Below, in pieces: positions 1-12,188 of a DNA stretch of 38,133 bases (its first letter is position 1; each line of letters opens with the position of its first letter). A model generated the notes under the pieces. The model saw nothing but the letters and a program-made list of their open reading frames with translations. It searched no databases and was not told the DNA's origin. The translations under genes were made by a program, and so were the position numbers. The stretch comes from Microcaldota archaeon (GTDB taxonomy: Archaea > Micrarchaeota > Micrarchaeia > Micrarchaeales > Micrarchaeaceae), in contig DAHXLY010000012.1 of assembly GCA_027365735.1 (NCBI GenBank), positions 1-38,133 of the forward strand, in the 5' to 3' direction.

Positions 1-185
1 ATGTCTGTCCTTCCACGCTCAAATCTGTATTCCCCGCCACTATATTCTAGAACTCCTTTAACAAAATAATCAACAAATCTTGGGCTAAAGTCATGTTCAA
101 GGTTGTCTTTGGTTATCTCGCCGTTTATCTTCTTGAAGGCGAGTAAGACTTTGTCTACAAAACTAACATCCGATTTGATAGCCAC
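1..185 (-). CDS. Truncated CDS at window edge; GTG start, unknown function, third gene downstream of the OLD-like gene
   Basis: Manual translation from GTG at 185..183: (M)AIKSDVSFVDKVLLAFKKINGEITKDNLEHDFSPRFVDYFVKGVLEYSGGEYRFERGRTD... with no stop to the window edge; starts 12 nt after the stop of the OLD-like ORF, same strand. Confidence 0.6.
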   Translation of the reverse strand, partial: MAIKSDVSFVDKVLLAFKKINGEITKDNLEHDFSPRFVDYFVKGVLEYSGGEYRFERGRTD

Positions 186-197
186 ATTGATTACCGA

Positions 198-1805
198 TTA
201 TTTTACTATTTTAGATAGTATATCTTTTATCTTATCTGGAACCTGTTCCGCTTTGATTCTATCTACAACATAATCTGCTAGCAGTACTTTCCACATTTTT
301 GGTAGTTTATCTCCTTTAGATTTTATGTCGTTTATAGTAAAACCATCCTTAATTTTTGTAGTCTCGCCTATTGATCCCAAAAATTCATTGATTAGTTCTG
401 ATGGGTAATATTCTTCTATAGCTTCTTTTTCAAGCTTATAGAAGCTGTCTTTAGATATGGTTCCCTTGTCGAGCAACGCCTTAATCTCAGCGTCCGTTTG
501 TTTTCCAGAATCGGCTATAACATAAACAGGTATATCTGCACCCTTAGATAGTTCAATCCAGAAATCTAGATTGTGCCTTGCTTTGTTTACCCCCTGCATT
601 GGTATTATTGATATGCGCTCGTCAAAGTCCAGATTCAGTAGCTCGGCGCAGCGACTAACGAAGGTCTTATCCGATGTCCCTTCAACGAATACCACTTTAT
701 CTGCCAGCAACAAATCGCTCGGTCTAGCACCTAGTTCAACTATGACTTTTTTGAGTTCATCCTTATCTTTAATCTGTGAAATTTTTGACTCTGCATCCTC
801 TTTTTGAATCAGATAGGTGCCTCCCTGCTTATTTATGAATGTTGTTGAATGTGTGGAAATGAAGAATTGAAAGTTATAGGCTTTCTTTTTTAGATATTCT
901 ATCAACTGTCTTTGGGCATGCGGATGAAGATGCATCTCTGGTTCTTCTATTGCGAAGATTGTTACACCCTTGCTTGATAATTCCTCAATGTATCTTACAA
1001 TTGCAACTACCTCCTGTTGACCACCGCCATGTAAATATATGGGTAATTTTGCGTTGCCCTCGGCCAGAAAAATCTGGTTACTTGAAACTTCTAAATCTTT
1101 ACCATCCAAGACTTGTTGCAAATTGGTTTTTATCTCTCGCCAAGTTCTTTTTTCTACCGGTGCCGTGCTTTGGCTCAGGTTCCTTATAGAATTCTGTGTT
1201 TCGTTATCTAAAAAGGCATTTCTTTCACCTATGGCAGTAACTGACTGATTAGATTGATCCCTTGTAGGTGCTATCAACCTAAAATTATTCTTGGTTTTTG
1301 TAGTTAAAGCCCCTAAAAATTGCGATATTTCATTTTCAGGCTTCAGATTTGCATCCATTGCTTTTATTTTTGTATCGAAGTCGGCAGCAACTTTATTACC
1401 GTCAATTATCTTGACGTTATTTACTGCCAGATCGTTTGTTCTCCAAACTCTTTTTCCTTGATTCGATATAGTCCTTTTTATAGAGACTTCACATTCCGTA
1501 GATTCTGGGATAATCTTGCGTAGATTTTCTGTACTTGTAGACGCAAATTCATCCTTAGTTAGTGCAAGTGTAAGTTCAATTCCTATCTCTAAGTTGGTAT
1601 TCTCATTGAACCATAAATGGTCTGGTACTGCTGCGGGTTTTTCCAATGTCGGATCAAATTCCCTAAAGAAGGTATCCAACGCCTCCAATAGATTAGATTT
1701 TCCAGAGCCGTTTCGACCAGCTAAGATGTTTATAGCGTTGAAGTCTCCTATCGCTACGTCTCTCAAGCTCCTATAGTTTGAAATATTAACGCGTTTTATC
1801 TTCAT
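198..1805 (-). CDS. OLD-family ATP-dependent nuclease-like protein (ABC-type ATPase + TOPRIM-like C-terminus)
   Basis: Walker A ILAGRNGSGKSNLLEAL, Walker B TIFAIEEPEMHLHP, H-loop FISTHS, TOPRIM-like KVVFVEGTSDKTFV and IPVYVIADSG...LEKEAIEEYYP. Confidence 0.85.
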   Translation of the reverse strand: MKIKRVNISNYRSLRDVAIGDFNAINILAGRNGSGKSNLLEALDTFFREFDPTLEKPAAVPDHLWFNENTNLEIGIELTLALTKDEFASTSTENLRKIIPESTECEVSIKRTISNQGKRVWRTNDLAVNNVKIIDGNKVAADFDTKIKAMDANLKPENEISQFLGALTTKTKNNFRLIAPTRDQSNQSVTAIGERNAFLDNETQNSIRNLSQSTAPVEKRTWREIKTNLQQVLDGKDLEVSSNQIFLAEGNAKLPIYLHGGGQQEVVAIVRYIEELSSKGVTIFAIEEPEMHLHPHAQRQLIEYLKKKAYNFQFFISTHSTTFINKQGGTYLIQKEDAESKISQIKDKDELKKVIVELGARPSDLLLADKVVFVEGTSDKTFVSRCAELLNLDFDERISIIPMQGVNKARHNLDFWIELSKGADIPVYVIADSGKQTDAEIKALLDKGTISKDSFYKLEKEAIEEYYPSELINEFLGSIGETTKIKDGFTINDIKSKGDKLPKMWKVLLADYVVDRIKAEQVPDKIKDILSKIVK

Positions 1806-1846
1806 AATTAAAACCGCTTTATCTATACCATCTAAAAATATAGATA

Positions 1847-2329
1847 TTATATGTTATCTGTAATAAATTGGGTTATCGTTTTGAACTCTTCTACAGCATC
1901 TGGCGGGATTATAATGTTGCTAGTAGTCTTCCAGCTTCCATTCCATCTTGATTCAGATATTGAAAAATACTTTTTGCCGTTTTCTTTATACACCGACGCC
2001 CATATTCGTTGGAGCGGTTCGCCGCTATCCTGATCCACAATGGTAAAATTTCTGAAAGCTATAGGTGAAGTTTTGGAATTAACTGTAACGTGATTGGGCC
2101 TTATCATTCGCTCTCGTCCTTGTACGTCTATAAGAATTTCGCCCTTACTCCACAACGCCTCTATAATCAATCTTGTCTTTTCTGGAGATTGCTCCATGCC
2201 CTTTTTTGTTAGCTCCTTATTTAATTCGGCTATACTAAATTTTTGTTTATTCGCAATCCATTGTTCTTTTATCAAGTCCAAAGTAAGCTCTTCTATAGGG
2301 TCCAATAATGATTCCATTGCAAACACCAA
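1847..2329 (-). CDS. Small protein with probable N-terminal winged-helix-like region; unknown function
   Basis: 160-aa ORF, same strand and 41 nt upstream of the OLD-like gene; helical N-terminus IEELTLDLIKEQWIANKQKFSIAELNKELTKKG. Confidence 0.6.
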   Translation of the reverse strand: MVFAMESLLDPIEELTLDLIKEQWIANKQKFSIAELNKELTKKGMEQSPEKTRLIIEALWSKGEILIDVQGRERMIRPNHVTVNSKTSPIAFRNFTIVDQDSGEPLQRIWASVYKENGKKYFSISESRWNGSWKTTSNIIIPPDAVEEFKTITQFITDNI

Positions 2330-2406
2330 TTTACTTTATGAAGATAAAGCTTAAATATGTATTCCTTCAAAGATGTAAAATATAAAGGATTGCATAAAGT
2401 GATAAA

Positions 2407-2667
2407 ATGTCCAGAAAAAGGTTCGTTGACAAAAATAGAAAGCGTGTTCGCAAAGGCCCTGGAGTATACTCTCTCTTTGCAAAAGGCGCAAAGAAGCCGA
2501 CTTACATAGGTTCGGCTAAAAACCTCAATAGGCGACTATCTGAGCATCAAGGGCAAAAGTATCACACCTTCGAAGTAAAGCACACTAATAGCACTAAAGA
2601 GGCTAGGGGTCTTGAGAGGAAGCTGATAAAGAGAAAAAGACCTAGGCGGAATAAAGTTTATGCCTGA
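2407..2667 (+). CDS. Stand-alone GIY-YIG domain nuclease-like protein
   Basis: GVYSLF...PTYIGSAKNLNRRLSEHQ...RGLERKLIKRKRPRRN matches GIY, YIG, Arg, Glu and Asn motif order. Confidence 0.75.
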   Translation: MSRKRFVDKNRKRVRKGPGVYSLFAKGAKKPTYIGSAKNLNRRLSEHQGQKYHTFEVKHTNSTKEARGLERKLIKRKRPRRNKVYA

Positions 2668-2672
2668 GATGA

Positions 2673-2924
2673 TTGAATATGGACATAGAAGAGTTGATTG
2701 GTGAGTTTGTTGGCGGTGCAGTCCTTGTCTTAATCGCAGGAGTATCCATATACGCTTTAGTTGCGTTTGGAAATGCTGCATCATCCATGCCGGGCGGCAC
2801 CCAAGCAGTTAGCACAACCAACTACGGCATCCTAGCGATAATGACAATTGTCGGCCTGGCCGGGGTAGGAGGATTCATAAAACTCGCGCAGTGGATAACG
2901 GAAGCTTTTGAAGGCCAATGGTGA
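2673..2924 (+). CDS. Small two-TM membrane protein; same frame stays open past its TGA
   Basis: Hydrophobic segments VGGAVLVLIAGVSIYALVAF and YGILAIMTIVGLAGVGGFI; 6 nt after the GIY-YIG stop. Confidence 0.5.
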   Translation: MNMDIEELIGEFVGGAVLVLIAGVSIYALVAFGNAASSMPGGTQAVSTTNYGILAIMTIVGLAGVGGFIKLAQWITEAFEGQW

Positions 2925-3269
2925 ATTTTATTGCTAGGACAAGCAGTTTCAAGTTTAACGAGCCTTCCCACGAACTTAGACTCGGTTAATTGGGCAACAG
3001 GTAGACCATATTCTACGGTAACGCTGAATTCACCTGCTGGCGAAGTTATTTTCGCACCATGGAAGAACTACCAAAGTCACTATAGCTATGCAGAATAATC
3101 CAATCCATGTAAAAGGTGCCAATACTAGTTTTGATTATCGCTCTCCTTCAAAACCCCCCTCGTTCACTGGCTCAAGATGGTCGGTCATTGCATTCCCTCC
3201 CTCTTTCGCAGTTCACGAGGGGGTCGCCACAACTGGCTTTAAGCTTGCAACCAAGCAGCGGCCATTCTA

Positions 3270-3562
3270 GCCTTCAAGGAACCTCTGCGGCTGCTTCTGG
3301 GCGGGGCAGAAGCAGCCTTGCCCGTTGGGTCGTAGTAGCCGGAGCCGCCGTCCGAACGAAGTTCGGCACGCCCGAACCTGCCCAGAGCAGGTGAAGGGCG
3401 TAAGGCGGCGGAGGCTTACTAAAGACCTCAACTTAAGAGGTATGCTGTATTATTGATGGTTAGAAGTCCCTCGTGAAAACTGAGTGGTCTTTAGCTTGTC
3501 GTCGAGAGCCTACTAAAGGCCTTTTGGGCTATGGGGTCTTTAGTCGTCCTGAGGTCTTTAGT
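3270..3562. repeat. Hairpin- and repeat-rich noncoding zone downstream of the integrase
   Basis: Perfect 11-bp stem GGCTGCTTCTG/CAGAAGCAGCC (3289-3299/3307-3317); CCGAAC/GTTCGG (3352-3357/3361-3366); CCTGC/GCAGG (3377-3381/3387-3391); GGTCTTTAG at 3486-3494, 3535-3543, 3553-3561 and inverted at 3419-3427. Confidence 0.7.
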
Positions 3563-4325
3563 TGCGGCCGGAAAGTCTAGCTTTCAGACCAGAAGCCCGC
3601 TCTACAGAAAAAGCTTCGTCCACCGCTTTGTAAAGCTCGTCCTTCCGGGTGTTTATGTAGGTCATGGTGGTGCTCGGGTCGCTATGCCTAGCGAACCTGC
3701 TTGACAGCACCACATTCCCGTTGCTTTGGCGTGCGAAGCTGGTTATTGCATAGTGCCTCAGGCTGTGTGTGGTAAGCCTATGCAGCCGCCTAGGCGTACG
3801 CCCGTATGAGTCCTCACTCTGGTCGTAGACTTCGTCCAGCTTTGCCGCTCGGACATACTCCCTGAACACCTTCCGCACGTAGTTCTTCTCAAGGAACGGC
3901 TCGCCCCTAAGGCTATGTCCTGGGTCTGCGAAGAACACGAACCCTCCAGCTTGCGTGATCACTTTGTCGTTCCTGTTTATGAACTCGACAGTCTGCCGAA
4001 AAAGTGGCACTGGAATTAGCATCGTATCAATTACGTGGGCCTTTTCCGTTTTCACGATTAACTCACGCGTCTCGAACTTGATGTCCTTTACATTGACTTT
4101 GACAGCTTCGCCTATCCTCAAACCAAGTTGGGCTTGGTATGAAAACAGTAGGCGAAACTTGTCATTTTCTATTACCTTGAAGAAGGCTTGCACCTCCTGT
4201 TCTGTGAAGCCCTTATTCAGGCTTCCGTACTTAGGAGGTACATTGCCTCTGAAACGTTTTTGTTTGATTTTGTAGATTACGGAGAGAACGTCCTTAATCT
4301 CGTGGAAACTAAGCTGCGGAAGCAC
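3558..4325 (-). CDS. Tyrosine recombinase/integrase (catalytic domain; probably the C-terminal fragment of a partitioned integrase)
   Basis: LGLRIGEA (Arg I), THSLRHYAIT (HxxR), RHSDPSTTMTYINTRKDELY (H...Y). GTG start; frame open upstream to 4508 inside tRNA-Glu. Confidence 0.85.
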   Translation of the reverse strand: MLPQLSFHEIKDVLSVIYKIKQKRFRGNVPPKYGSLNKGFTEQEVQAFFKVIENDKFRLLFSYQAQLGLRIGEAVKVNVKDIKFETRELIVKTEKAHVIDTMLIPVPLFRQTVEFINRNDKVITQAGGFVFFADPGHSLRGEPFLEKNYVRKVFREYVRAAKLDEVYDQSEDSYGRTPRRLHRLTTHSLRHYAITSFARQSNGNVVLSSRFARHSDPSTTMTYINTRKDELYKAVDEAFSVERASGLKARLSGRN

Positions 4326-4449
4326 CTCTTGTATGTGCTTCTTGAGTTTTTCGGGTTCGGTCTCCGTGATGGAACCGAACCGTTTGCTGCTAAATTTCTT
4401 TCCTTTAGCTTGGGAACTGAACCCGAGTTTGTCGTCGAAAATCTGATTT

Positions 4450-4523
4450 GCTCCCCTCGGGATTTGAACCCGAGTTACAGGGTTGAAAGCCCTGTGTCCT
4501 TGGCCGGACTAGACGAGGGGAGC
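4450..4523 (-). tRNA. tRNA-Glu(TTC)
   Basis: GCTCCCC/GGGGAGC acceptor stem, CAGGG-CTTTCAA-CCCTG anticodon arm (TTC), TCGGG-TTCAAAT-CCCGA T-arm; 74 nt cloverleaf. Confidence 0.95.
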
Positions 4524-11954: not shown

Positions 11955-12188
11955 CTATCTGGACCTCCTTCCACGCTTTCTCGATCGGGGCGATGACGCC
12001 GGTGCTGCCGAGGAGCCTGGCTCGAGTTTCCTTATCCTGTCCCACGTGTAGAACGAGACTACAGCCGCAACAACGAAAATCCCGTAGAATATGATTCCCG
12101 CTCCATTAACTATAAAAACTATTATTGCCAATACCGTCAGTACCACTATGAGGGCAGACAGCCATACCTCGGTTGTTATTTTTGCCAT
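11955..12188 (-). CDS. Small membrane protein
   Basis: Two hydrophobic segments and basic C-terminus RSRKRGRRSR. Confidence 0.55.
   Translation of the reverse strand: MAKITTEVWLSALIVVLTVLAIIVFIVNGAGIIFYGIFVVAAVVSFYTWDRIRKLEPGSSAAPASSPRSRKRGRRSR

Follow-up and report, generated by a model that had tools for sequence, protein, structure and literature searches.

A Xer-like integrase gene of Micrarchaeota, very probably split by its own integration into a tRNA-Glu gene

Integrase genes that split themselves on integration into a tRNA gene are familiar from SSV-type archaeal viruses and plasmids. According to the main review on these "suicidal" integrases, they form the PF16795 families and represent a recent adaptation, which arose in a single event and is linked to hyperthermophiles (Badel 2021, PMC8371274); DPANN and Micrarchaeota are unmentioned in that review, whose own clusters may nonetheless contain, unnoticed, Micrarchaeota fragments of the kind described here. 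In Thaumarchaeota, the integrated element NitEve-E3 carries an integrase described as SSV1-like, which was split in two by integration (PMC6563490). Our search of the open-access literature, subscription journals being outside its scope, found no paper on split integrases in Micrarchaeota or other DPANN.

The DNA analysed here (the window) is a stretch of 38,133 nt, which makes up the whole of contig C29 in a 562-kb assembly estimated to be 53% complete. ARAGORN calls a tRNA-Glu(UUC) on the minus strand at 4449-4523, and the integrase ORF (3558-4325) lies on the same strand. Reading the integrase frame from 4523, a TAG stop is met at 4511-4509, in the 5' half of the tRNA; from 4508, the frame is open down to its stop codon at 3558-3560, giving 316 residues starting with SGQGHRAFNPVTRVQIPRGANQIFDDKLGFSS. 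An earlier sequence-only reading had described 61 open codons between this TAG and a GTG at 4325, with no ATG, GTG or TTG among them, and the tRNA call, the translation and the codon table reproduce this exactly. It had also placed the first catalytic Arg near residue 72 counted from the GTG; our re-count gives about 70, this Arg being residue 131 of the 316-residue frame. For the reasons developed below, the feature is very probably int(C), the C-terminal part of a tyrosine integrase of the suicidal (self-splitting) kind, whose gene was split by integration. The relevant features are as follows:

4449..4523, minus strand: tRNA-Glu(UUC), the attachment target, probably reconstituted by integration (ARAGORN)
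4449..4505, minus strand: predicted attL, the 3' part of the tRNA, read in frame as ...GQGHRAFNPVTRVQIPRGA (attL/attR alignments of relatives)
4326..4448, minus strand: startless integrase coding segment from the tRNA to GTG 4325, about 41 codons, stop-free in close relatives (alignment and codon counts)
4409..4429, minus strand: T-arm-like sequence in int(C), 47 nt from the T-arm of the tRNA, speculatively an accessory integrase-binding site (repeat search)
4323..4325, minus strand: GTG, codon for Val62 within the first predicted helix (50-65), apparently not the original start (codon comparison in relatives and predicted helix)
3558..4325, minus strand: rest of int(C), with minimal core-binding helices and the full catalytic domain (PF00589 at 1.3e-12, residues in 56 homologues, AF2 model)
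1..4448, minus strand: visible part of the putative integrated element, its int(C) end, continuing past the contig end (synteny with a complete relative, L046)

The open frame is more than a matter of chance, since it recurs at a second tRNA-Glu of the same genome and is kept in relatives. Indeed, the 3' end of a tRNA-Glu (CUC) is open into the start of a 39%-identical integrase; this locus (L013, G000:C36:1-347) lies at the edge of contig C36, which breaks within the gene, and holds a different int(C). In the nearest relatives, which share 85-94% identity, the whole integrase frame is open into the tRNA, and it is usually open as well in the other relatives where a tRNA adjoins the integrase.

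We found homologues of the integrase in 77 of 100 related genomes, and all named relatives are Candidatus Micrarchaeota MAGs. In many of them, given flanks of sufficient length, the 3' half of the tRNA is found again 1.8-9 kb downstream, as a direct repeat with the same orientation; read in the integrase frame, this repeat is preceded by an ATG and gives a short N-terminal peptide, int(N). We tallied the ATGs, counting each element once and comparing with the two other frames: an in-frame int(N) ATG is present in 18 of 22 relatives' elements, whereas the other frames yield an ATG 4 times out of 44 (Fisher p = 5.6e-9). Such peptides occur at tRNA genes for Glu, Leu, Gln, Ala and Asn, as well as at other tRNAs:

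int(N) at tRNA-Glu: MKLEKDDKLGQGR-GAFNPATRVQIP in L043, L049 and L067; MELENDAKSGQGR in L046
int(N) at tRNA-Leu: MARNIGVK...
int(N) at tRNA-Gln: MELETSEARPRT or MKLETRETWSRT
int(N) at tRNA-Ala: MEQMLDEKLGTRV
int(N) at tRNA-Asn: MVAKAKARYEKA...

A TATA-like GCTTATATA is conserved before the int(N) ATG, and the Glu group also shows GGTGCTAGA. The four elements lacking an in-frame ATG are L053, L100, L056 and L058; in the first two, an ATG is found 19-20 codons upstream in a different frame, which in L053 is the start of a Leu-type int(N), and the simplest explanation for this mismatch is that int(C) has decayed and carries a frameshift. Among 301 genomes of the phylum, 11 have the Glu-type int(N)-att pattern; they come from two families of one order, and all 11 int(N) frames stop after 32-62 codons, i.e., they are detached from the full integrase body; no intact gene was found among these loci. 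Viral (IMG/VR), phage and plasmid collections yielded no relatives, and hence no gene with an unsplit attP; the empty-site comparison through the host gene beside the tRNA gave no close match to this gene in relatives (best 52%).

The repeat common to both ends of the related Glu elements spans roughly the equivalent of 4449..4505, of which a single copy is seen in the genome of the window. The closest relative of the element, L046 (G097:C20), is complete and carries the same OLD-ATPase/methylase cargo, with a nucleotide identity to the window of 82% in int(C) and of 85% across the 1805 nt that hold the OLD-ATPase and methylase sequences, up to base 1. Base 1 of the window corresponds to L046:9067; from there, L046 goes on through the methylase to attR at 12127-12171, where its int(N), ATG-ELENDAKSGQGR, stands in the integrase frame before the tRNA 3'-half copy. 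From the position of this repeat, the missing end of the element is expected about 3.06 kb past the contig end, so that the far end of the window copy would lie some 3 kb beyond base 1. The sequence-only reading had predicted an int(N) fragment and a tRNA-Glu 3' copy at the other end: both are seen in relatives, L046 included, whereas in the window's own assembly the contig ends at base 1, and no int(N) or third att (tRNA 3'-half) copy was found in any other contig of this 53%-complete assembly. When the rest of the methylase was sought in the same genome, it was present solely at the contig edge by base 1, which makes an assembly gap the simplest explanation for the missing far end. The cargo carried by the visible part is as follows:

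3..185, minus strand: first part of an Eco57I/type IIG-like methylase, truncated where the contig ends (75% amino acid identity to L046:8883-9065)
198..1805, minus strand: OLD/Gabija-A-like AAA ATPase with TOPRIM (Pfam AAA_15 at 3.5e-31 and OLD-like_TOPRIM at 2.9e-9; PADLOC AriA/Old/GajA)
1847..2329, minus strand: small protein of the cargo, with no Pfam, PHROG or PADLOC match
2407..2667, plus strand: small GIY-YIG nuclease-like protein (Pfam GIY-YIG, 1.6e-8)

The ATPase is 92% identical in amino acids to that of L046, and the methylase protein of L046 matches Eco57I at 1.4e-32 and type IIG at 6.5e-61. Related elements have few genes, often for restriction-modification or defence (OLD/GajA-like ATPase, type IIG or Eco57I methylases, HNH and GIY-YIG nucleases); other cargo includes a cation efflux protein and a ParA-like ATPase, and the 9-kb element of L096 (tRNA-Asn) has, by eye, apparent DNA-methylase, Vsr-like and HerA-like genes. 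One has to consider that int(C) is broken in many relatives, as it would be if the window held nothing more than a degraded, no longer functional element, whose frame is open by coincidence; but the catalytic frame of the window copy is intact and 92-94% identical to its nearest relatives and the cargo synteny is conserved, which makes mere decay very unlikely.

To which family does this integrase belong? It matches Phage_integrase (PF00589) with 48.3 bits, vs. a cut-off of 27.1 (1.3e-12), and its best NCBIfam model is the archaeal XerA NF040815 (55.6 bits, 5.7e-15), at a score below the curated equivalog cut-off of 220 bits. R131, K156, H248xxR251, H275 and Y284 (316-residue numbering) are invariant or nearly so in 56 homologues. 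The AF2 model (pLDDT 76, pTM 0.62), of which only the general fold can safely be used, has residues 1-46 disordered, followed by two helices (50-65 and 68-85) before the catalytic domain; the integron integrase and archaeal XerA are its top matches among solved structures. The sequence-only reading had called the gene an "SSV-like partitioned integrase". Its mode of splitting, with an in-frame attP, agrees with what we see; its family does not, and the HMM comparison with SSV-type integrases that had been proposed as a check speaks against it, as Phage_integr_3 (PF16795) is found neither in this integrase at E <= 1 nor in any of 100 relatives, vs. 1.5e-61 for SSV1 Int as a control in the same search. 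True membership in the SSV/pTN3/pT26-2 suicidal families, with which the gene shares its layout (attP within int, the 3' part of a tRNA as target, the two ends split), is thus hardly tenable: besides PF16795 and the XerA match, no meaningful profile alignment of the family with SSV1 Int was obtained, and the active site reads R-K-HxxR-H-Y, vs. KxxR (SSV1) or AxxR (pTN3) (PMC5495485).

The fold also bears on whether GTG 4325 could be the genuine start of a complete, classical integrase of about 255 aa, the upstream frame being open by chance. The GTG is shared by the window and its eight closest relatives, and truncation to it leaves the PF00589 match unaffected; but the codon is GTA, GTC or GTT in L019, L047 and L023, it falls inside the first predicted helix, and the codons upstream of it are kept in frame, running on in relatives into the far-end int(N) peptides. 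A start at this GTG is therefore most improbable, and complete homologues beginning there, which the earlier reading had named as the case that would speak against a split, are disfavoured by the same codon replacements. Among close relatives, pN/pS is 0.52 in the startless segment vs. 0.09 downstream; this ratio alone says little, since synonymous divergence is also lower in the startless segment (0.23, vs. 0.49 downstream), which may reflect a constraint at the DNA level near att. As estimated from these alignments, selection on the segment is weak, and confounded by the low synonymous divergence.

We propose the following scheme for the split gene. In the free circle, a promoter, a ribosome-binding site, an ATG and about 8-20 element-specific codons would precede an in-frame attP, with the same sequence as the 3' part of the targeted tRNA gene, and then the integrase body. 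Recombination with tRNA-Glu would leave the tRNA intact and followed by a startless int(C), while the promoter-ATG-int(N) piece would be moved to the other end of the element, beside the displaced tRNA 3' copy. What the sequences show directly is the frame, the tRNA repeats, the in-frame int(N) of relatives, the conserved active site and the cargo synteny with a complete relative; an attP lying in frame and a gene split when the element integrates into the tRNA, both suggested by the sequence-only reading, find strong support in the relatives, L046 among them. Recombination activity and the loss of integrase expression after integration are both inferred from these sequences. According to the model, integration would remove the promoter, the ribosome-binding site, the start codon and a tail, and no folded domain; the cut-off part would thus be a short tail with its start codon, contrary to the earlier suggestion that most of a core-binding domain is missing. 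Integration would then switch the integrase off through loss of its start, not of a folded domain, and excision would require an intact integrase in trans.

The att alignments bear on the point of exchange. Among the Glu elements, mismatches between attL and attR extend as far as the first T-stem position in L043 and L067, and are seen again from the acceptor stem onwards in L049. Among the Leu elements, they precede the T-arm in L051 and follow the T-loop in L055. One crossover within the T-arm would fit these data, in which mismatches are few and later mutation could mimic the pattern. T-arm-like GGTTC sequences are also found on both sides of att, at 4409-4429 in the window and, in L047, L080, L060 and L085, ahead of int(N); they are possible accessory integrase-binding sites.

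Could int(C) still be made after integration, from a tRNA-proximal transcript with a non-canonical or tRNA-internal start, so that the element excises itself? Some relatives do have an in-frame start in the acceptor-stem region of the tRNA (ATG in L066, L069, L073, L019 and L047; GTG in L064, L065 and L023), the model suggests that every ordered part is retained in int(C), and Int(C) of SSV1/SSV2 is reported in the review to be active in vitro, with in-frame starts close to int(C) described there for relatives of pTN3 (PMC8371274). Such an acceptor-stem start is, however, missing from the window copy and from L063, L067 and L068, and several integrated copies contain stops; we consider continued synthesis of int(C) unlikely, and favour an integrase silenced by its own integration.

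Several loci show a more complex organization. Att repeats lie directly before older int(C) remnants in L049 (11671-11796), L084, L081, L091 and L056; these are successive integrations at one tRNA, where a new int(N) reads on into an older int(C), the two staying in frame over some codons. We considered whether such tandem integration rebuilds a full int gene at these five junctions, and rejected this: the junctions of L049 and L084, which were read out, are broken downstream. In L087, L088 and L114, the tRNA target seems to contain an intron, and att shows two T-arm/acceptor-like copies separated by about 100 nt. In L044 / L066 (G074:C31), int(C) has a tRNA 3' stretch without the tRNA 5' half, which is a rearranged or decayed target rather than attP.

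In a quick tree of 56 integrases, whose rooting is arbitrary, split genes are found on both deep branches; on the same tree, the members with their own start need one state change, and tRNA targets changed at least 12 times. Six members (L054, L105, L106, L107, L110 and L113) have an apparent ATG of their own after the tRNA-derived stretch, L054, L106, L107 and L110 being the tRNA-Pro group; from its sequences, this subclade seems not to be self-splitting, and splitting seems not to be universal in the integrase family. Taken together, this looks like a separate, Micrarchaeota-wide lineage of suicidal integrases. Such integrases probably arose at least twice: a Xer-like lineage of Micrarchaeota would have independently placed attP within the 5' end of its own coding sequence and come to use many tRNA targets, in a minimal form that loses only the promoter, the ribosome-binding site, the start codon and a disordered tail. 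That a numerous, unrelated Xer-like family does likewise in tiny-genome archaea suggests that the design is selected for and is not a historical accident; the near-minimal split lends itself to testing the idea that integration would turn the integrase off once and for all, as a one-shot switch. In annotation, such integrases will be given wrong starts or called as fragments, and the ends of their elements can be read from tRNA 3' repeats.

How, then, does the family compare with known systems? As in SSV1 Int, pTN3 and pT26-2 (PF16795), attP lies in the int frame, the target is the 3' part of a tRNA, and int is split into int(N) and int(C), the latter with the catalytic domain; unlike them, the family is PF00589/XerA-like with HxxR, and its hosts are Micrarchaeota. 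Att comes after about 8-20 codons here, vs. about 63 codons for the annotated site in the 335-codon gene of SSV1 (from about codon 64), and the exchange is inferred in the T-arm, vs. anticodon-loop cuts for SSV1 according to the review (PMC8371274). NitEve-E3 (PMC6563490) likewise has its integrase split by integration, a likeness drawn here from its description as SSV1-like. With archaeal XerA and the classical pNOB8-type integrases, the family shares NF040815 as best model, the catalytic signature, PF00589 and XerA among the top solved structures; it differs from archaeal XerA in reaching 55.6 of 220 bits and in having two predicted helices before the catalytic domain, and from the classical pNOB8-type, where int stays intact after integration, in that the window frame is startless and int(N) is detached in relatives.
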